From contig NZ_JIAL01000001.1 in assembly GCF_000688455.1 (NCBI RefSeq), forward strand, positions 620,001-684,000: 64,000 nucleotides of DNA, read 5' to 3'. Made by a program: the position numbers and the translations under genes. The stretch's first letter is position 1, and each line of letters starts with the position of its first letter. The notes beneath the pieces were generated by a model, which did not search any database, was not told the DNA's origin, and worked only from the letters and a program-made list of their open reading frames with translations. The stretch comes from Pseudacidobacterium ailaaui (GTDB taxonomy: Bacteria; Acidobacteriota; Terriglobia; Terriglobales; Acidobacteriaceae). This document shows, in pieces, positions 17,526-58,307 of this stretch.

Positions 17526-18767
17526 CTACTGTGTCGCAGTCGATGCCATCCTTACCGATGCTGTCTCGGTAGCTGGCTTGCTGATGAAGTAGTTCTTGTC
17601 CCACAGGTTGCGGTAGAAAATCCCGGTCAGTTCCGCTGCCTTGGGGCCAAAGGTCGGGCGGCCGCCTTCCAGAAAGAAGACCGTCACAATGCGTCCGTAC
17701 TGCGTGTCCGCATAAGAAGCAAACCAGCCATAGCGGGTGCCGTTGTTGGAGCAGGTGCCGGTTTTGCCCAAAATCGGGAACTGATTGAAGTTGGCACGCA
17801 GAGAGCGCGCGGTCCCATACTGGACGGCGGCCTGCATTCCGTCCTGGATCTCGGGAAGAATTTTCGAAATGTCCAGCGTGCGTTTGATGCGCGGCTGAAA
17901 ATTGAGTACTTCTTCAGGAGTTGTGGGATGCTGCAGGTAATACAACGTTCCCCCATTGGCGATCGCAGCCACCAGGGCCCCCAGTTGCAGCGGGGTCATG
18001 GAGACACCTTCTCCGAAGGAGCACATGCGCCCTACGCCACCTTCGCTGTCAGGAATCGGCTCGTCAGGATAAACACCGAGGTGTTCACCGGGAATGTTGT
18101 ATCCGGCCAACTCTCCCAGGCCGAACTCATTGGCATAATGGCGGACCCGTTCAAAGCCAAGGCGGCGACCCAGTGTTTCAAAGTAGAGATTGTTGGAGTG
18201 GGCCAGCGCCTGCGTCAGATTCATGCTGTAATGGCCACCCAGATTCACCGGAGTGTCTTTCGTAATAATCCCCTCATCGAGGGCCGCCAGAGCAACGGAA
18301 AGTTTAATCGTCGAACAGGGCTCGGCCCCGCTTGACAGCGCCAGCTTCTGGTTCACCATGGCCAGAATGCGTCCATTACTGGGATCGATGGCCACCACTG
18401 TGCCATTCATGTTCCCCAGCGCATCTACAGCAGCCTGACGCACAATAGGGTCTTCACCACCGGTAACATCCCCTGAGATCAGGTCATCGATGTCCGCAAA
18501 GGAGTTGCCAGTAAAACGTTCATAATAGCGGTGCCGCACCCGCAGACTCGCGCGACGTACGCGTCCGCGGCGGACGGTCACAGAAGCATTTTCAAGATGG
18601 GCAGTGCGGTGCGTATGTTGCAGTCGCGCCATGCGCTGTTTTGCCCGGGAGGACTCAACCACACGGGCGCGGCGCGTGGTGTGGCGGGTCGTGGATGTGC
18701 TTCCCGCCCACAAAAACACTGGCAGCACTATGAACCCCAACAAAAAGAAAGATACCCTGTGCCTCAT
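17526..18767 (-). CDS. Penicillin-binding transpeptidase-domain protein
   Basis: A 413-residue inner-membrane-anchored peptidoglycan transpeptidase. Residues 8-22 form an uncleaved signal-anchor. A very basic stretch (about 25-85) follows, then the transpeptidase domain with the three PBP motifs in order: STIK (about 152-155, acylating Ser), SNN (about 191-193) and KTGT (near 335). It has no non-penicillin-binding dimerisation domain, so it is smaller than PBP2 or PBP3 and nearer to class-D/MrdA-like minimal transpeptidases. The frame begins at GTG 18779, but ATG 18767 is the better start. It stands about 245 bases downstream of ftsZ on the same strand, so a role in division or septal peptidoglycan is reasonable but inferred. 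Confidence 0.85.
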   Translation of the reverse strand: MRHRVSFFLLGFIVLPVFLWAGSTSTTRHTTRRARVVESSRAKQRMARLQHTHRTAHLENASVTVRRGRVRRASLRVRHRYYERFTGNSFADIDDLISGDVTGGEDPIVRQAAVDALGNMNGTVVAIDPSNGRILAMVNQKLALSSGAEPCSTIKLSVALAALDEGIITKDTPVNLGGHYSMNLTQALAHSNNLYFETLGRRLGFERVRHYANEFGLGELAGYNIPGEHLGVYPDEPIPDSEGGVGRMCSFGEGVSMTPLQLGALVAAIANGGTLYYLQHPTTPEEVLNFQPRIKRTLDISKILPEIQDGMQAAVQYGTARSLRANFNQFPILGKTGTCSNNGTRYGWFASYADTQYGRIVTVFFLEGGRPTFGPKAAELTGIFYRNLWDKNYFISKPATETASVRMASTATQ

Positions 18768-19013
18768 TCCGCGATTCACCCCAAGCCAGCTTATTGCATC
18801 CTACCGTAAAAGGCCCCTGTACTTCTGATGACAAGACATCAGTTGCGCAGGCCGGTTCCTCCAAAGGCACCCTGGTCCCATTCTGGGATGCAACCAGGGC
18901 CTCAACTCAATTGGACACACCCGGCAGCAAAAAGATGCCTTCCGCTTTTCGGATCACTTTCAGATAGGGAATGTGCCGGGCTGATATTTTCACTATACCT
19001 TTCTGAAAGTCTT

Positions 19014-20333
19014 TTACAAGCCCCCGCGACGCATAAATGCAGGAATATCCAGTTCATCCCCCTGCTCTTCGCCACGCGGTTCAAAAAATACCTCTCTAGG
19101 GCTGGACGGTGCCGCCACAGCAACGGCAATGGGCTCGGACCGTTGTTCTATTCCAGTTTCAGCAACGCCCGGTGCTTCCGGCGCCACAGAGGACAGCGGG
19201 ATGGCCGGGGCCACAGACTGGCGGACCTCCGGCTCCTCTTCCTCTTCGCTCATAAATCTTGGGGCCGACGGCTGGGCTGTCTCAACATGCACACGGGGCG
19301 CTACCGGCTCGCGCAACGTTACGTTCAGCATCCGTTCGCGGCGTTCGGCCATCTCCTGCCGGAACCCTGTGGCAATCACTGTGATTTTTACCTCGTCCCC
19401 CATATTTTCATCCAGCACCGCGCCAAAAATGATGTTCGCATCCTCATGCGCCGCATTCTGGATAAGAGTCGAAGCTTCATTGACCTCACTCAGCTTCAGC
19501 GAACTTGACCCGGTGATGTTGATCAGAATGCCCTTGGCCCCGTCAATCGCACCGGCCTCAAGCAATGGCGAAGAGATGGCCGCCTGTGCCGCCTCCAGCG
19601 CACGATTCGCACCGCTGCGTACCGCGGTGCCCATGACCGCATAGCCCATCCCGGCCATCGTGGTCTTTACATCAGCAAAATCCCGGTTAATGATTCCGGG
19701 GATGGTAATGATGTCTGAGATCCCCTGCACTCCCTGGCGCAGCACATCATCGGCAATCCGGAAAGACTCAAAAAAGCCCGCGTCTTTTGCCACAGCCAGC
19801 AGCTTTTCGTTCGGGATGACGATCATCGTATCAACGGACTCAAGCAGCTCTTCCATGCCGCGTTCCGCCTGAAGCATCCGGCGCTTGCCTTCAAAACCAA
19901 AGGGACGGGTCACCACGGCCACCGTCAGTGCGCCCATTTCACTGGCCAGGGAGGCAATGACCGGGGCAGCTCCGGTGCCGGTCCCGCCGCCCAGTCCCGC
20001 GGTAACAAAAACCATGTCCGCGCCCTCCAGGGCCTCAATGATCTTTTCCGAATCCTCAAGGGCGGCGCGGCGACCAACATCTGGATTCGCCCCTGCTCCC
20101 AGGCCGCTGGTCAGTTTCAGACCAAGCTGCAGCTTTACAGGAGCATGGGAGAGCTGCAAAGCCTGCGCATCCGTGTTGGCGACAATGAATTCCACTCCTT
20201 CCACACGGGCCGCAATCATGCGGTTCACCGCATTTCCGCCGCCGCCGCCTACGCCGATGACCTTGATCTTGGCACCGCGCGGGACCTGTTCATGGTAATG
20301 AATACGGATCTCTTCTGAAGGGTTCATGGGCAT
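19014..20333 (-). CDS. ftsZ: Cell division GTPase FtsZ
   Basis: The tubulin-like GTPase that forms the Z ring. The signature loop [13 protein letters not shown] is present, with [17 protein letters not shown] at the nucleotide-binding start and the T7 synergy-loop region [13 protein letters not shown]. The globular domain spans about residues 15-330. A variable acidic/Ala linker follows, ending in the conserved C-terminal peptide [14 protein letters not shown], which binds FtsA and other partners. AGGAG lies 3 bases before ATG 20333 and 9 bases before a second in-frame ATG at 20327, so either may be used. The gene follows ftsA by 6 bases in a ftsQ-ftsA-ftsZ operon. Confidence 0.98.
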
Positions 20334-20339
20334 TGGCTC

Positions 20340-21557
20340 CTACACACTTCCTGCAAAAATGGCGCGCAGTTTGGCGCGCAGTCCCTGGTCTTCCGCCGCA
20401 CGGCTCACGCTGGTGCGGTGGGCATACAAAAGCATTCCTGTTAGAACAGCGTTCTCCGGGTCCACCAGCTCTTCCGGCATCCTCGACAGCGCTACCGGCG
20501 TTCCAATGCGGGCAGGCGTGCGCAGCAGGCTTTCGGCCGTATCCAGCAGACCGGGCAGACGAGCGCCGCCTCCGGTGAGCACGCAGCCGGCCCCCAGGGC
20601 CTCCAGCACGCCGCCCTGGCGCAGATTGTCCCGCAATAAGTGGAAGAGCTCGCGCGCCCGCGGCTCAAGGATCTCCGCCACGAAGCGCTGCCGCACCGTA
20701 CGCGGACCATGCCCGGGCATCCCATACAGCTCAATTTCATTGCCCGAAGGCACCGCCGTGACCACAGCGTGCCCATAGTTGCACTTGATCCACTCTGCCT
20801 CTTCGACCGAAACATGGAGGCCAACCGCCAGATCGTTTGTGAAGTGGTCTCCGCCAATCGGGACCACCGCCGTATGCGCCACCGATCCCTCAAAGAAAAC
20901 CACCAGTTCCGTAGACCCGGCGCCGATATCAATCAGGCAAACTCCCAGTTCCCGCTCATCGGCTGAAATGGTGGCCTCTGCCGCAGCGATGGCTTCAAAA
21001 ACCGACTCGGTCACTTCCAGCCCGGCTTTATTGGCGCAGGTCACAATGCTCTGCAGGGCGCTGGCCGAGGCCGTTGCAATATGCAGGTTGACTTCCAGCC
21101 GGTTCCCGATCATCCCTACCGGGTCATGGATGCCCGGCTGATCGTCCAGAATGAATTCCTGGGGCAATAAATGCAGGATCTCCCGGTCATTGGGCAGCGA
21201 AACCGAACGGGCACGGTCCACAGCGGCGCGCACATCTTCCCGTGTAATCTCGCGCATGCGCGTGCCCAGGCTGATGCCTCCGCGGCTGTTCACACCGCGC
21301 ACATGCCATCCCCCCACGCCCACCACGCAACGATCAATGGTGGCCTGGGCCATGGCTTCAGCCATCATGGCCGCGTCGTTCACGCTGCGGGCGGCTTGCT
21401 TCAATTCGGCAATCACGCCTTTGCGCATCCCTTTGGAATCGGCAATCCCATGGGCACGATACCGCAGAGCGCCATCATACAGCTCAGCCACCAGCACCCG
21501 GGTCTTTGCGCTCCCCACATCCAGCACCGTCAGCAGGTTCTCCGTCTTCTGGCTCAT
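20340..21557 (-). CDS. ftsA: Cell division protein FtsA
   Basis: An actin-like ATPase that anchors FtsZ to the membrane and recruits later divisome proteins. At 405 residues it has the usual length. It shows the phosphate-1 region LTVLDVGSAKTRVLV, the SHS2 (1C) domain (VNSRGGISLGTRMREITREDV), the phosphate-2 region CLIDIGAGSTELVVF, and the adenosine motif GCVLTGGGARLPGL. A C-terminal amphipathic helix (AEDQGLRAKLRAIFAGSV) is present. Its ATG overlaps the ftsQ stop by 4 bases (ATGA) and its stop is 6 bases before ftsZ, so the three are co-transcribed and coupled. Confidence 0.96.
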   Translation of the reverse strand: MSQKTENLLTVLDVGSAKTRVLVAELYDGALRYRAHGIADSKGMRKGVIAELKQAARSVNDAAMMAEAMAQATIDRCVVGVGGWHVRGVNSRGGISLGTRMREITREDVRAAVDRARSVSLPNDREILHLLPQEFILDDQPGIHDPVGMIGNRLEVNLHIATASASALQSIVTCANKAGLEVTESVFEAIAAAEATISADERELGVCLIDIGAGSTELVVFFEGSVAHTAVVPIGGDHFTNDLAVGLHVSVEEAEWIKCNYGHAVVTAVPSGNEIELYGMPGHGPRTVRQRFVAEILEPRARELFHLLRDNLRQGGVLEALGAGCVLTGGGARLPGLLDTAESLLRTPARIGTPVALSRMPEELVDPENAVLTGMLLYAHRTSVSRAAEDQGLRAKLRAIFAGSV

Positions 21558-22633
21558 GCTCTCTTCCTGTAGGGGTGTGCAGGGGCCTTTGTTTTTGCCT
21601 TGCCGGCTTTCGGCACTGGCTGTTGGTTCTGCTCAGCAGATGCCTCCTGGCCCATGGCCGCGTCCTTTGACATTTTGAGCACCACCTGACCGTCGTAACG
21701 CAGATCTACGGAAGCAAGGTTCGGATATTGCTGCTTCCATTCGCCCAGGTGCTGCTTGTACTCGTTCCAGCGATTCAGGAAGTTGTCCTGCCCAAAATGC
21801 AGCAAGATGTCGGAACCACCCTCGGACACCAGCCCCTGAACATCTTCCGGGTCTGAGAGATCAATCTCACTCAACTGGCTGGAGACCCTCTCACCGCCCG
21901 TATCGATGTCAGCCATAAACTTCTGATAGAGCTTCATGCGTGGACGCCGAACCGAAAGCGGGTCCTCCGGATGGATGCCGATGACCACCGGAAACGAATA
22001 GTGTTTTGCCGCCAGTGCAGCAGGACTCATGTCCAGCAGGACGCCGTCGGCATCTACCAGCTTGACCTGGTTGCCCACCCGCGCAAAGGCAACCGGTACA
22101 CGTTCCACAATCGAAACACGAATCTGGTTGGGAAGGATGCGCATGACCGTCGCATGGGCCACCCAGGGGACCTGCTCCAGTTCTTTGCGTCGTTGTGCCA
22201 AGGGCACGAAAAACAGGTTGCGCCCAATGTCCGCACCAAAAACTGAAAGCAGATCAGCACGCGTAAGCTGGCTGTTGCCGTCAATCTGAATGTTCGCTGC
22301 AGAATCGATCCGGAAATGGGGATCATGGTCGAGAAAATTCTGGACGGCCATCACAAGCATGACACAAAGCACCACAAGAATGACGCCGAAAAAGCCAAGG
22401 GCCACGCGTCCCGGTATGGTTTTTGTCAGAAACGGAGGCAGGAAGCCCTTGCGAACCGGGACCCGTTTACGGGCACGCAGAAACGCCTCTTCCTCGGATG
22501 CGTCCTCTTCATCCACACGTGGAATGGGCCGCTGAAGACGCGTCCGGACCTTCACTTCGGGACGCAGGAACTCCTCAGCTGGCAGATGCTCTGCCAACGC
22601 GGGACCGTTTTGATAAGGACCTGTTTTCGCCAC
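21554..22633 (-). CDS. ftsQ: Cell division protein FtsQ
   Basis: A bitopic divisome protein linking cytoplasmic and periplasmic components. A long basic cytoplasmic region (residues 1-80, rich in Arg and Glu) precedes one membrane helix (about 82-103, VALGFFGVILVVLCVMLVMA). The periplasmic POTRA domain has IDGNSQLTRADLLSVFG, and the FtsQ/DivIB domain has PWVAHATVMRILPNQIRVSIVER. The C-terminus is an unusual Lys/Ala/Gln-rich tail. The start is GTG. It is coupled to ftsA by a 4-base overlap. No mur, mraY or ftsW gene lies upstream; the next gene is a lipoprotein 114 bases away, so this is a small division operon detached from the classical dcw cluster. Confidence 0.9.
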   Translation of the reverse strand: MAKTGPYQNGPALAEHLPAEEFLRPEVKVRTRLQRPIPRVDEEDASEEEAFLRARKRVPVRKGFLPPFLTKTIPGRVALGFFGVILVVLCVMLVMAVQNFLDHDPHFRIDSAANIQIDGNSQLTRADLLSVFGADIGRNLFFVPLAQRRKELEQVPWVAHATVMRILPNQIRVSIVERVPVAFARVGNQVKLVDADGVLLDMSPAALAAKHYSFPVVIGIHPEDPLSVRRPRMKLYQKFMADIDTGGERVSSQLSEIDLSDPEDVQGLVSEGGSDILLHFGQDNFLNRWNEYKQHLGEWKQQYPNLASVDLRYDGQVVLKMSKDAAMGQEASAEQNQQPVPKAGKAKTKAPAHPYRKRA

Positions 22634-54115: not shown

Positions 54116-54790
54116 TTACTTCAGCCCTCGTTTCATGCGATACACAATCCCTACGGAAATCGCAAACTGGTCCTGAATACCGCCCGAACCGAATTTGGTA
54201 ATTGTGGCATCGGGTGAGATACGAAAGACCAGCCTTGGCGACCGGTTCAGATCAATCGAGCCGCCAAAAGCCCCGCCAAAGGCCAGCTGGTTGCTGAACA
54301 GGCCCAATTCTGCCGGAGGAACGTTCCCGATGGCGTGCTGGAAGTCCCCGTAGGCCCCGCCTACCAGGGCGTGCAGCGTCAGCGAGGCATGTTCATTGCT
54401 GGGGCCGCGCCATTCCGGACCAACCAGAAACATATGCTCGCTCACAAAGGGTCCCTTGATGTTGTAAATGTTCGGGACCACGCCGCTGGTTCCGTAGTAT
54501 CCGCGGACGTTGGCTGCTGCTGCCCACCGCTTTGTAAAAAAGCGCGCCGCCTGGGCATCAAATCCGCCCAGATTGGCTCCCTGCAGCAAATTCGGCCCTG
54601 CGTTGAAGTGTGAATACGCCACGCCCCCATAGATTTCCCACTTATAGTCATAATTCACGCCGGCCAAGGCGTAATTCGGGGCGACCTGCGGCTGCTGGTT
54701 CGGAGATGACACGGTGCTCTGCGTCTGGGCGAAAGCTACAGAAACTACAGCGGCAAGGGCCAGAAAAGAAACGAATGTCCTTTTGAACAA
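54116..54790 (-). CDS. Outer-membrane beta-barrel protein, paralogue 1
   Basis: A 224-residue exported protein predicted to form an 8-stranded barrel (alternating hydrophobic strands, C-terminal ISVGIVYRMKRGLK). The signal peptide is FKRTFVSFLALAAVVSVAFAQ. The open frame starts at GTG 54802 and the GGAGGAG ribosome site is inside its first codons. TTG 54790, 5 bases after GGAGG, gives exactly this signal peptide, so I use it. It shares WEIYGGVAYSHFNAGPN and SEHMFLVGPEWR with the protein at 57651-58307 (WDIYGGFAASHFNPGAG, SEHLFLVGPNVR). Porin or adhesin-like function is unknown. Confidence 0.68.
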   Translation of the reverse strand: MFKRTFVSFLALAAVVSVAFAQTQSTVSSPNQQPQVAPNYALAGVNYDYKWEIYGGVAYSHFNAGPNLLQGANLGGFDAQAARFFTKRWAAAANVRGYYGTSGVVPNIYNIKGPFVSEHMFLVGPEWRGPSNEHASLTLHALVGGAYGDFQHAIGNVPPAELGLFSNQLAFGGAFGGSIDLNRSPRLVFRISPDATITKFGSGGIQDQFAISVGIVYRMKRGLK

Positions 54791-54966
54791 AAACTCCTCC
54801 ACAGTTCCGGCAAACGGAAATTGTCCGTAAATTTTAAAGATACATGGCCGGGCGGCCTTCTGTCAGATGGTTCGAAGTTTCCTGCCCGCTTCAGAGGCCC
54901 TCCCGACGCGGCCGTCTCTGGCTTGCTATACTGAGTAGGAATGCACTCTTTGCGCATTCTACTTCT

Positions 54967-55717: not shown

Positions 55718-56968
55718 TCAGTGTGAGTAATTCTGTACATACGCGTCGCGCGGAAGCCCTTCGCGAATGGCCTTGTTTCTCAATTGCACGGCAGCATCGT
55801 GCTCCATAGGGCCTCCAATGGTCACCAGAAACGGCGGAACATTCCCTTTAGGGGAAAAGACCTCGGCCTGCAAACCCGGGTCCCTGCTCTGGATCATCTC
55901 TGCTTTATGCTGCGCCTGGTCCTGGTGGCGATAGGTGTAAACCACGACGCGCCACACGGATTTCTTCCCCGACATGGCCACTGCCGGCCCTCTGGGCAAA
56001 ACAGCCTGCTCTGCTCTGGGTATCGGCTTGGCGACCGTAACTGCTGGCGCGGTAGGGGCCTGCTGGAAACTCTTCTTCTCTGGCGAACGAAACACTGCCT
56101 GGATTGCGAAAAAGATCAGCAACGCAAGCAGCGCCAGACCCATCGCAATCCCCGCCCATTTTCTGGACTGCTCATGCCTTTCCGCCGGTTCCTGTTCATC
56201 TTCCGGCACAGCAGGCACAGGAGAATCAGCACTCTCCGCTGCACGCAGCGCCGAAACAGGCTGACGCAGCAGTGCATCCATTTCCTTCACAGTTGCCTGG
56301 CCTCCCAAGGCCCTGCGCACGATCTGTGAAAAAGGCTGCGGCAGAGACTCCACCTCAGGGTCCTCCGCGCCGGGCACCATCACTCTTCGCGTCAGGCAGC
56401 GGTAAAGCAGACATCCCAGCGCCTGCACATCTTTTGCCGCCAAGGCCTGAAATTCCACTCCCGGAACTTCACCCTTCTGGACCGCCGCCGCGGTCTGCAG
56501 CTTATCGCTGCGCAGTTTGACGACATCGCCCGCCGCCAGCACGCTGGAAGGCTCCAGTTCTCCGCATAGCAACCGCTCATTGTGGATCGCCTGCAGAGCC
56601 TGCACCAGACTTTCTGCCACCTGCCGGGTTTCCTCTTCCGTAAGCGCCCGCACGCGCAGCACATCTTCCAGGTTCTCCTCGGTCATCTCCAGGACGGCAT
56701 ATACCAGTGGTGTATCCAGCACTCTGGCCACTCCTGCATCATGAATTGCAACGACGTTTCGATGGCGCACCCTGCTTGCAGCAAGGATGCGGGCCAGCAA
56801 TGCCTCCTCATCGTTTAACGATTCGATGACACTCAGTATGGCGGGCTTTCCCTCAAAGCTTGTTTCAAACCACCCATACCGCCCTTCTGACCGCACCAGC
56901 CTGCCTAACGGATATCTTCCGGCTGCGCCGGCGTTTTCAAAATCGCTCCACACTGCGGACCACCCCAT
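55718..56968 (-). CDS. Pseudokinase-SPOR domain membrane protein
   Basis: A 416-residue bitopic protein. Residues 1-235 resemble a eukaryotic-type Ser/Thr kinase fold (YPLGRLVRSEGRYGWFETSF, HRNVVAIHDAGVARV, LVQALQAIHNERLL), but the catalytic set is missing. The ATP-binding Lys is not in place (ILSVIESLND). HRDxxxxN reads CGELEPSSV, and DFG is absent (VKLRSDKLQ). A membrane helix (about 273-292, GIAMGLALLALLIFFAIQAVF) precedes a C-terminal SPOR domain (WRVVVYTYRHQDQAQHKAEM to end), which binds denuded peptidoglycan at division sites. A pseudokinase linked to SPOR suggests a septum-localised scaffold or sensor. This is inference; no catalytic activity is expected. Confidence 0.75.
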   Translation of the reverse strand: MGWSAVWSDFENAGAAGRYPLGRLVRSEGRYGWFETSFEGKPAILSVIESLNDEEALLARILAASRVRHRNVVAIHDAGVARVLDTPLVYAVLEMTEENLEDVLRVRALTEEETRQVAESLVQALQAIHNERLLCGELEPSSVLAAGDVVKLRSDKLQTAAAVQKGEVPGVEFQALAAKDVQALGCLLYRCLTRRVMVPGAEDPEVESLPQPFSQIVRRALGGQATVKEMDALLRQPVSALRAAESADSPVPAVPEDEQEPAERHEQSRKWAGIAMGLALLALLIFFAIQAVFRSPEKKSFQQAPTAPAVTVAKPIPRAEQAVLPRGPAVAMSGKKSVWRVVVYTYRHQDQAQHKAEMIQSRDPGLQAEVFSPKGNVPPFLVTIGGPMEHDAAVQLRNKAIREGLPRDAYVQNYSH

Positions 56969-57195: not shown

Positions 57196-57510
57196 TTATG
57201 CTACCGAGCTTTCCGCGGTTGCGGTAGTCAACCTTGGGACATTACTGGCCCGTGAAAGCAGCGTCATCCCTTCAATCGCCAGCTCTCGGGCCATTTTGCG
57301 CAGTTCATTCGGGCGCTGATTGTGAATGTCCGTAAGTTGAAACAGTGCCGCCGCAGCCTTCAGCTTGGCCACGCCTTCAAACGCGGGGGTACCCGCTCCC
57401 GGCCCGGCCTGAATCACATTGTCCGCCGTGACTTTGAAGACATCATCGCCAGCGATGACGAAGGCCACCAAATATTTTTCTGCAGAAGAGGAAACAGGAA
57501 GAGTTGCCAT
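57196..57510 (-). CDS. Hypothetical small soluble protein
   Basis: A 104-residue protein with no family I recognise. The N-terminus (ATLPVSSSAEKYLVAFVIAG) and the Ala-rich middle (GTPAFEGVAKLKAAAALFQL) suggest a mixed alpha/beta fold. The C-terminus is polar. AAGGATG about 6 bases before the ATG is a reasonable ribosome binding site, and no better frame competes. It sits between the pseudokinase-SPOR gene and the outer-membrane protein gene on the same strand but about 140-230 bases from each. Confidence 0.5.
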   Translation of the reverse strand: MATLPVSSSAEKYLVAFVIAGDDVFKVTADNVIQAGPGAGTPAFEGVAKLKAAAALFQLTDIHNQRPNELRKMARELAIEGMTLLSRASNVPRLTTATAESSVA

Positions 57511-57650: not shown

Positions 57651-58307
57651 TCAGCGCAAGTGGCCAACTTTGTACACCAGGCCCACAGTGCCCGCAAATT
57701 CATTCTGGGTGATGTAGCCGTAATGGGTCGGCTGCCAGTCAGTGGTCACGCGCACAGACCATCGTGGATTCAGGTTGTAATCCATCCATCCGCCAATCGC
57801 CATACCGTAGGCCACTTTGTTGTTATAGATTGCAAGCTGGTATGGCTGGACGCCCGTGCCCTTAAAGCCCTGATCAAACGATCCATCGGCCGCGCCCATC
57901 AGCAGGTGCATTCCGGCCGCATAATTTTCTCTCCGCAGCATACGCACATTGGGCCCCACCAGAAACAGGTGCTCTGACATGTTCGAAGTGCTGATGCCCA
58001 AATTATTCGGTGGAACAATAATGGTCCCGTAAAACCCTCTGGCGGAAAACTCCAGCCCGAAGGCCGGCTTCAGCCATGCCGTCGCGTCGCCATTCCATCC
58101 CTTCAGCCAGATGGCCGGCACACTGATGCCAGCCCCGGGGTTGAAGTGGGATGCAGCAAAGCCGCCGTAGATGTCCCACCGCTCCTCATACTGCGGCAGC
58201 ACGCTGACCGGAGCGTTGGCCTGCACCTGCGCGTGTAAAGAAACAAATGCCGGAAAACAAACCAGAAGCGCAAAGATGGTACGCAGCGAACGAATGCTCG
58301 AAATCAC
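57651..58307 (-). CDS. Outer-membrane beta-barrel protein, paralogue 2
   Basis: A 218-residue exported protein with a signal peptide (residues 1-26, ending VSLHAQ) and a predicted 8-stranded barrel ending VGLVYKVGHLR. It is clearly related to the protein at 54116-54790 by WDIYGGFAASHFNPGAG and SEHLFLVGPNVR. These conserved blocks are followed by similar strand patterns, while overall identity is modest. The two genes are 2.9 kb apart on the same strand. The ATG at 58307 is used. Function is unknown; a porin or surface adhesin role is a guess from the barrel shape. Confidence 0.66.
   Translation of the reverse strand: MISSIRSLRTIFALLVCFPAFVSLHAQVQANAPVSVLPQYEERWDIYGGFAASHFNPGAGISVPAIWLKGWNGDATAWLKPAFGLEFSARGFYGTIIVPPNNLGISTSNMSEHLFLVGPNVRMLRRENYAAGMHLLMGAADGSFDQGFKGTGVQPYQLAIYNNKVAYGMAIGGWMDYNLNPRWSVRVTTDWQPTHYGYITQNEFAGTVGLVYKVGHLR

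Follow-up and report, generated by a model that had tools for sequence, protein, structure and literature searches.

A degraded kinase fold joined through a membrane helix to a predicted SPOR-fold domain in Pseudacidobacterium ailaaui and other Acidobacteriaceae

We analyzed a 64,000-nucleotide stretch of the Pseudacidobacterium ailaaui genome (contig NZ_JIAL01000001.1, positions 620,001 to 684,000; hereafter, the window) and found in it a gene for a kinase-like protein that has lost the residues of catalysis and is joined, through a single membrane helix, to a C-terminal part with the predicted fold of a SPOR domain. The gene is an open reading frame on the minus strand (55718–56968) with an ATG start and 416 codons for residues, its bounds being exact in the open reading frame list. 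All three kinase motifs are lost in this protein and in its relatives, which, judged by sequence, makes them pseudokinases by definition. What appears to be new is the outer domain (SPOR) of this family of pseudokinases, together with a sister family that carries another one (TonB_C). The features of the gene are the following:

55718–56968, minus strand: whole gene, coding for a pseudokinase–transmembrane helix–SPOR-fold protein of 416 residues (open reading frame)
56243–56944, minus strand: kinase-fold domain, about residues 9–242, catalytic residues lost (AlphaFold2 model, and VIA-align over residues 8–241)
56828–56833, minus strand: beta3 site, residue 46, Ser where kinases have Lys (codons 46–47 marked; alignment with 12 other kinases)
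56540–56566, minus strand: catalytic-loop region, residues 135–143, which read CGELEPSSV where kinases have HRDxKPxN (from the alignment with 12 other kinases)
56501–56518, minus strand: DFG region, KLRSDK (residues 151–156), in most relatives KLRSDC (alignment of relatives)
56090–56164, minus strand: predicted transmembrane helix, residues 269–293 (AlphaFold2 helix; hydrophobic segment 269–296)
55730–55954, minus strand: predicted SPOR-fold domain, about residues 339–413 (AlphaFold2 model of the domain alone; Foldseek and VIA-align)
55943–55945, minus strand: residue 342 (Val), the site of the conserved glycan-binding Gln of SPOR domains (Val in 38 and Ile in 15 of 53 sequences; same register by hhalign with one SPOR protein of the same genome)

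The structure was predicted with AlphaFold2 (AF2) from 53 aligned sequences, the window protein being one of them. The mean predicted local distance difference test score (pLDDT) of the whole protein was 86.7, and the model runs from the kinase part through a helix (residues 269–293) and a low-confidence linker to the SPOR-fold domain. Over residues 11–240 the pLDDT per ten-residue block was 91–98, with the sole exception of residues 161–170 (73). Foldseek placed mycobacterial PknA and PknB chains at ranks 1–3 (E 3.3e-12), and in VIA-align the nearest solved fold was that of PknB (1mru_B; Z 22.6, 224 residues aligned, root-mean-square deviation [rmsd] 2.5 Å, 22% identity). PknB also ranked first when phmmer was run against PDB chains (E 3.9e-5). 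The Pfam Pkinase profile matched residues 55–146 at E 6.4e-7 (29.5 bits, just below the curated cut-off of 31.7) and matched 50 of the 53 aligned sequences. The N-terminal part is, by this model, a two-lobed protein-kinase-like fold. An earlier note on this DNA, made from the sequence alone, had described the first 235 or so residues as kinase-like; the structure prediction it proposed as a check for residues 1–240 returned a kinase fold (about residues 9–242).

Alignment with 12 other kinases located the catalytic losses in the window protein. The beta3 Lys is replaced by Ser46, the HRD triplet by C135-G136-E137, and the Lys and Asn of the catalytic loop by Glu139 and Ser142. D-F-G falls over S154-D155-K156, so that S154 occupies the column of the DFG Asp and D155 that of the Phe. 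The earlier note had read the Lys, HRD and DFG elements as replaced, and the alignment bore this out. HRD and DFG are both present in 11 of the 12 comparison kinases. The remaining one, L023 (G032 C1:2134394-2134828), has neither: GNVQPYN and AEFS stand at the HRD and DFG positions, and VAIK is kept. It lies on a long branch among ordinary kinases in the tree described below and seems to be one more pseudokinase, distinct from this family.

The losses are shared by the relatives. Residues were counted at the kinase sites in 63 rows, the window protein plus 62 loci found in a scan of named genomes (the named loci), with one or two rows lacking a residue at each site. Position 46 was Arg in 42, Ser in 18 and Gly in one, and Lys in none of the 61 rows with a residue there. 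The position of the HRD Asp (137) was His in 47, Arg in 9, Glu and Gln in two each, and Ser and Lys in one each, with Asp in 0/62; the triplet, CGE in the window, is mostly H-E-H or H-G-x in relatives. The loop Asn (142) gave Asn in 36, Ser in 23, Gly in two and Gln in one (62 rows). The DFG region is highly conserved in its altered form (K151, L152 and D155 in 62/62, R153 in 61/62, S154 in 59/62, and Cys at 156 in 57/62), and the alpha-F Asp (180) is kept in 62. The glycine-rich loop is altered in SPOR-type sequences. The same catalytic losses were seen in the window protein and the 30 best whole-genome loci, some of whose contigs are shared with the named loci. Thus, among the window, the 62 named loci and these 30 loci, no SPOR-type relative keeps the catalytic residues, and the window protein and its named relatives lack the three residues that mark Hanks-type Ser/Thr kinases as active, namely the beta3 Lys, the HRD Asp and the DFG Asp. 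Orthologues retaining all of these residues, which the earlier note had named as evidence against its reading, were not found in this survey.

Kinase and SPOR parts share a single open frame in 57 of the 62 named loci; L075 was counted as intact because its one stop precedes the likely start, and in two others without a downstream SPOR match (L094, L114) the contigs end there. The ratio of nonsynonymous to synonymous substitution rates (dN/dS) was calculated for 12 non-overlapping pairs, taken from 35 pairs at 72–97% kinase identity, nine loci having been excluded beforehand. It was 0.06–0.27 in the kinase part, 0–0.33 in the SPOR part and 0.23–0.41 in the linker (one linker pair saturated), with silent sites approaching saturation in several of them; the pair of the window and L061 is saturated in kinase and linker. 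Because dN/dS is low in both, the kinase and SPOR folds are kept by selection, and the low ratios together with the shared catalytic losses therefore indicate a maintained pseudokinase family.

A second family has the same order of parts, pseudokinase–helix–TonB_C. Its loci in other genomes are L007–L019 (L011 and L018 partial), L127–L137 and L141–L145, with L127–L132 assigned by matches alone. Pfam TonB_C matched the C-terminus in 11 of the 11 proteins scanned. These proteins differ from the SPOR type by this C-terminus and by a beta3 Lys that is mostly kept: in a by-eye count over 18 aligned proteins, 16 had Lys and two Arg at this site, none had the HRD Asp, all 18 had S-x-D in place of DFG, most had Lys or Arg in the catalytic loop, and the loop Asn was present in 14. 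By eye, two TonB_C-like second copies (L133, L134) seem to have lost the beta3 Lys too, so this loss would not be restricted to the SPOR type.

A tree of 54 rows (24 of the 63 SPOR-type rows, 18 TonB_C-type proteins and 12 other kinases) supported the SPOR type at 100/99, the TonB_C type at 98/92, and both together against the 12 others at 100/100. When the glycine-loop, beta3, catalytic-loop and DFG columns were removed, the three groups still separated (Shimodaira–Hasegawa-like approximate likelihood ratio test 98, 95 and 100). Within the sampled tree the SPOR and TonB_C types are sister clades by sequence. The 12 comparison kinases were picked by similarity among the matches in kin genomes, plus the one from the own genome of the window, and for this reason other kinases might yet fall between the two types. 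A recent swap of the C-terminal part is unsupported, since the types form separate clades.

The two types seldom occur together. A strong SPOR-type match was defined as E ≤ 3e-70 to a profile (A2) of six SPOR-type proteins, and a strong TonB_C-type match as E ≤ 3e-54 to profile A6. Of 398 genomes in the same family, identified as Acidobacteriaceae from named records, 98 gave the former and 142 the latter by match strength; the 98 leave out G300 and G238, whose matches seem to be partial. Both types were found in eight genomes, against 35 expected (Fisher p 2.5e-12, a value that ignores relatedness and takes the types by match strength). Strict mutual exclusion, or orthology, of the two types was rejected because eight genomes carry both; in one of these, G204, the SPOR-type copy (L140) ends after the helix. 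Genome G373 has two SPOR-type copies, L138 and L139, plus a strong TonB_C-type match. A third C-terminal type, suspected from kinase-only matches, was dropped for the 13 stretches that were read by eye: a SPOR end was seen in L138 and L139, L140 stops after the helix, and ten are TonB_C-like.

In the 61 kin genomes, 31 had a match at E ≤ 0.001, ordinary kinases among them. A sample of 297 genomes of the phylum gave 23 matches at E ≤ 1e-15, of which 22 were in the same family (G007 and G009 being of the TonB_C type); the sole match outside it, G679, is a 380-residue frame with the kinase part only (E 1.3e-28), and none of the strong, family-level strength occurred outside the family in this sample. 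The titles of the 62 named loci include Acidobacterium, Edaphobacter, Granulicella, Terriglobus, Bryocella, Paracidobacterium and Silvibacterium, and named carriers include Terriglobus roseus DSM 18391, Edaphobacter modestus DSM 18101, Granulicella rosea DSM 18704 and Bryocella elongata DSM 22489. One SPOR-type gene (L071) is on a contig titled as a Rhodanobacteraceae metagenome-assembled genome; it groups with Granulicella in the tree, and the contig is probably mis-binned.

The window protein has one hydrophobic segment only (269–296), which coincides with the AF2 helix, as expected from the membrane helix that the earlier note had pointed out. Exactly one such segment, located in the linker, was found in 49 of the 53 sequences and at least one there in 52. 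A Pfam INV_N match over helix and linker (E 0.0037) was taken as a chance match. In the 15 residues flanking the helix, Lys plus Arg averaged 2.98 on the kinase side and 1.21 on the other side; of 52 sequences, 44 had more of these residues on the kinase side and six had fewer. According to the positive-inside rule this supports a topology, predicted from sequence, in which the kinase part is cytoplasmic and the SPOR part is outside.

In the AF2 model, residues 339–413 form a beta-alpha-beta-beta-alpha-beta arrangement (pLDDT 93–96 over 341–410), and residues 330–416 modelled alone had a mean pLDDT of 86.9. The best-matching structures include CwlC (Foldseek E 8.5e-4; VIA-align Z 9.8, 79 residues aligned, rmsd 2.7 Å), the exported Burkholderia protein 6ozd (Z 9.6), the RlpA SPOR domain with and without glycan (7.7), DedD (7.6), DamX (5.0) and FtsN (4.6); some of these values are modest. 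Six structures were listed at Z ≥ 5.0, and the titles of five identify them as SPOR domains or wall-binding domains of SPOR type. The Pfam SPOR profile gave no match in the window protein itself, which a SPOR search of its own genome also missed. Among the 53 sequences it matched 45 at E ≤ 0.1, with 1.8e-7 as the best value. By fold and by the profile matches of its relatives (PF05036), the C-terminal part is predicted to be a SPOR fold.

These parts suggest that the window protein is a single-pass inner-membrane adaptor that crosses the envelope, from a pseudokinase inside to a wall-type SPOR domain outside, a proposal to which we give an even chance. It is made because a kinase fold whose residues would not allow ordinary catalysis is held by selection together with a membrane span and a wall-type outer domain. 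The kinase fold would lie in the cytoplasm and would no longer phosphorylate, offering instead a conserved protein-binding surface; a remodelled, salt-bridged pseudo-active site is probable, given the invariant or near-invariant R30, E49, D53, K151, R153 and D155. Beyond the helix and a variable linker, the SPOR-fold domain would sit in the periplasm and attach the protein to the peptidoglycan layer, perhaps where the wall is being remodelled, as it is at the septum; a cytosolic partner would thus be gathered at such places. The SPOR type and the TonB_C family would have a pseudokinase ancestor in common. Such an adaptor would most resemble EssB/YukC in layout and MviN in theme, by analogy with the excerpted text of PMC12599244.

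Several observations weigh against this proposal, above all those on the SPOR ligand site. The excerpted text of PMC6895207 describes a highly conserved Gln (Q270) and R302, R309 and R311 of RlpA as touching the glycan by their side chains, with F274 stacking and many further contacts made through the main chain; the counterparts of Q270 are Q251 in FtsN and Q351 in DamX, both important for localization to the septum, and the Gln is presented there as preferred, not universal. In our 53 sequences the Gln site (residue 342) is Val in 38 and Ile in 15, and Gln in none. Residues 381 (Leu, Phe, Gln or Val) and 383 (Thr, Ala, Ser, Val or Ile), the sites of R309 and R311, lack Lys or Arg in 53/53; these two were placed by our own alignment of the beta3-strand pattern, which left R302 unassigned. 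The register of the Gln site comes from MAFFT, with weak agreement from hhalign: against the RlpA-like protein of the own genome the beta1 register was the same at low probability (2.5%, E 0.018), and the FtsN-like protein aligned only from the end of beta1 onward (31%, E 5e-4). The Gln is retained in both of these further SPOR proteins encoded in the same genome, one of which resembles FtsN/DedD by eye and the other RlpA. At the F274 site (residue 346) the aromatic is kept (Tyr in 46, Phe in 7), and a distinct set is conserved: W339 (53/53), Arg or His at 340 (51/53), an aromatic at 344 (52/53), G404 (53/53), D408 (53/53) and N413 (49/53). Wall binding is therefore uncertain, because the known glycan-binding side chains are replaced throughout; glycan may still be bound, because the stacking aromatic is kept and many of the contacts of RlpA are made through the main chain. 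By these alignments the SPOR fold is present and its known ligand site is not, and binding of denuded septal glycan should not be assumed. The earlier note had called the C-terminus a septal peptidoglycan-binding module and had suggested a role at the division site; the SPOR fold was borne out, septal glycan binding and the division-site role being conjectural. The result on the SPOR ligand site weakens above all the septal step of the proposal.

Also on the negative side, 300 of the 398 family genomes, some of them incomplete, lack a match of the strong strength, so the protein is not a core part. No SPOR match follows downstream in L091 and L093, both on long contigs, and L108 has its kinase and SPOR parts in different frames; L091 and L140 are equally long contigs and probably identical, and the defects of L091/L140, L093 and L108 may be assembly errors or real losses. 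No segment over the hydrophobicity threshold used was present in L111 (Terriglobus roseus). A profile search at E ≤ 0.001 detected no FHA domain in the own genome, which makes a read-out of the MviN/FhaA type unlikely; a phosphorelay based on FHA was rejected on the same ground. Clustering of open reading frames of at least 90 residues around the 63 loci, several of them cut by contig ends, revealed no broadly kept gene neighbour, the best cluster reaching 11 of 63; hence no partner can be named.

Other explanations were weighed against the same evidence. The protein could be a septal recruitment factor of the FtsN/DedD kind: its SPOR domain would bind denuded septal glycan as such domains ordinarily do, and its pseudokinase would stand in for the short cytosolic tail as the contact to the divisome. 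The order of parts is that of FtsN/DedD, the fold matches those of DedD, DamX and FtsN, the aromatic equivalent to F274 is kept, and Arg or His stands at 340 in nearly all sequences; however, the conserved Gln and the aligned basic sites of the beta3 strand are lost in all sequences, and ftsA and ftsZ, with an ftsQ-like gene at 19–22.6 kb of the window, are at least 33 kb from the pseudokinase gene. We regard this as possible, if rather improbable. The conserved set that takes the place of the canonical residues would also fit a receptor instead of an anchor. Its altered SPOR domain would read some other ligand, be it a different glycan, a fragment of the wall or a protein, and the pseudokinase would relay the state of that domain to a cytosolic partner; but the domain is not known to have such a ligand and the conserved residues may be structural, and we consider the idea unlikely.

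The kinase fold might keep some unusual catalysis, for instance through acidic residues that have migrated, as is the case in other atypical kinase-superfamily members. This would agree with the invariance of K151, D155, E49 and D53 and with the beta3 Lys or Arg, the mostly basic loop and the frequent Asn of the sister clade. The SPOR type, in contrast, has no beta3 Lys, HRD Asp or catalytic-loop Lys, has an altered glycine-rich loop, and retains the loop Asn in only 36 of 62 rows, which leaves this explanation very improbable. The patchy occurrence (98 of 398 genomes) and the copies with an absent or out-of-frame SPOR part might suggest a decaying relic without function. This is largely contradicted by a kinase dN/dS well below 1 in 12/12 pairs, and the intact frame in most named loci and the many invariant positions also speak against it; we find it scarcely credible.

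The adaptor proposal may be extended to both families. TonB_C is typical of contact with the outer membrane, and SPOR of a position facing the wall. The Acidobacteriaceae would then have a dedicated class of trans-envelope pseudokinases in which one inherited cytosolic kinase-fold module is joined via a helix to either TonB_C or SPOR, the SPOR type having traded both of its ligand sites for new conserved ones; we put this forward tentatively, a little short of an even chance. If true, it would mean that a kinase fold is used purely as a part for coupling inside to outside.

PknB consists of a cytosolic kinase, one helix and an outer part that faces the wall. The window protein is predicted to have this layout, but unlike PASTA kinases it lacks the catalytic residues and has a SPOR fold instead of PASTA; the NCBIfam PASTA-kinase model (Stk1/PknB) scored 32.5 bits in it against a cut-off of 450. 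FtsN and DedD are built of a cytosolic part, one helix, a linker and SPOR. A membrane anchor and a disordered linker occur in most SPOR proteins according to the excerpted text of PMC6895207, and FtsN, DedD and DamX share these and the SPOR fold with the window protein, which differs from them by its cytosolic kinase fold of about 235 residues and the loss of the conserved glycan Gln.

MviN (ActPs3) combines a flippase part with a pseudokinase. The window protein shares the theme of pseudokinase and peptidoglycan with it, but it has 416 residues and one hydrophobic segment, and the FHA search of its genome gave no match, so it was not assigned to the MviN/ActPs3 group. In the excerpts of PMC12599244, the MviN pseudokinase is tied to peptidoglycan biology as a scaffold without ATP binding, EssB/YukC is a transmembrane pseudokinase of type VII secretion with all three motifs degraded, and the GLW pseudokinases have GLW in place of HRD and LLLL/W at beta3. 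EssB/YukC resembles the window protein in layout and differs from it in serving type VII secretion. The 50 best structural matches listed by VIA-align did not include EssB, from which we draw no conclusion. The CGE of the window protein, the H-E-H or H-G-x of its relatives, and their Ser or Arg at beta3 place them outside the GLW pseudokinases.

The main text of PMC12599244, a 2025 review of bacterial pseudokinase families, contains no Acidobacteri*, SPOR or TonB. The excerpted text of PMC3989709 has no kinase–SPOR fusion, and in that of PMC3355149 Pkinase and SPOR are on different proteins. No NCBIfam model exceeded its cut-off for the three SPOR-type proteins scanned. In the open-access literature searched (most subscription journals being outside its scope), no kinase–SPOR protein or family of this kind was described, nor was a TonB_C pseudokinase family found. 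The SPOR-type family, which a group of soil bacteria keeps, is thus apparently undescribed, in line with the earlier note, which knew of no such fusion without catalytic residues; the TonB_C sister family and the loss of the SPOR Gln go beyond that note. Bacterial pseudokinases have hardly been studied, and here a series is available from ordinary kinases through the TonB_C type, mostly keeping Lys, to the fully degraded SPOR type. With the named strains, this series makes testable both the route from kinase fold to adaptor and the function of a SPOR domain without the conserved Gln.

The genome has two Pkinase matches, the window gene and a canonical kinase whose C-terminal part is long and repeat-like, as well as one PP2C match and FtsA. 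The best neighbour clusters were a membrane transporter that looks by eye like the major facilitator superfamily (11/63), and a 104-residue protein of no assigned family and a LysR-like regulator by eye (8 each). An operon logic was dropped, and no function was drawn from gene context. infC adjoins the gene in the window; of the 62 named loci, L063 (90% identity) and L062 (over just 20 residues) show the same. Directly upstream on the same strand lies the 104-residue frame (57196–57510, minus), without a Pfam match; it is upstream of the gene in 8 of the 62 named loci, and its L061 copy is 96% identical, against only 62% for the pseudokinase of that locus. Two proteins that look alike by eye, of 228 (54116–54802, minus) and 218 residues (57651–58307, minus), flank the infC/pseudokinase pair, neither with a Pfam match at E ≤ 0.01. 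At 17526–22633 on the minus strand, an ftsQ-like gene, ftsA, ftsZ and a penicillin-binding-protein-2-like gene stand in a row, the first and the last scoring below the cut-offs of their models.
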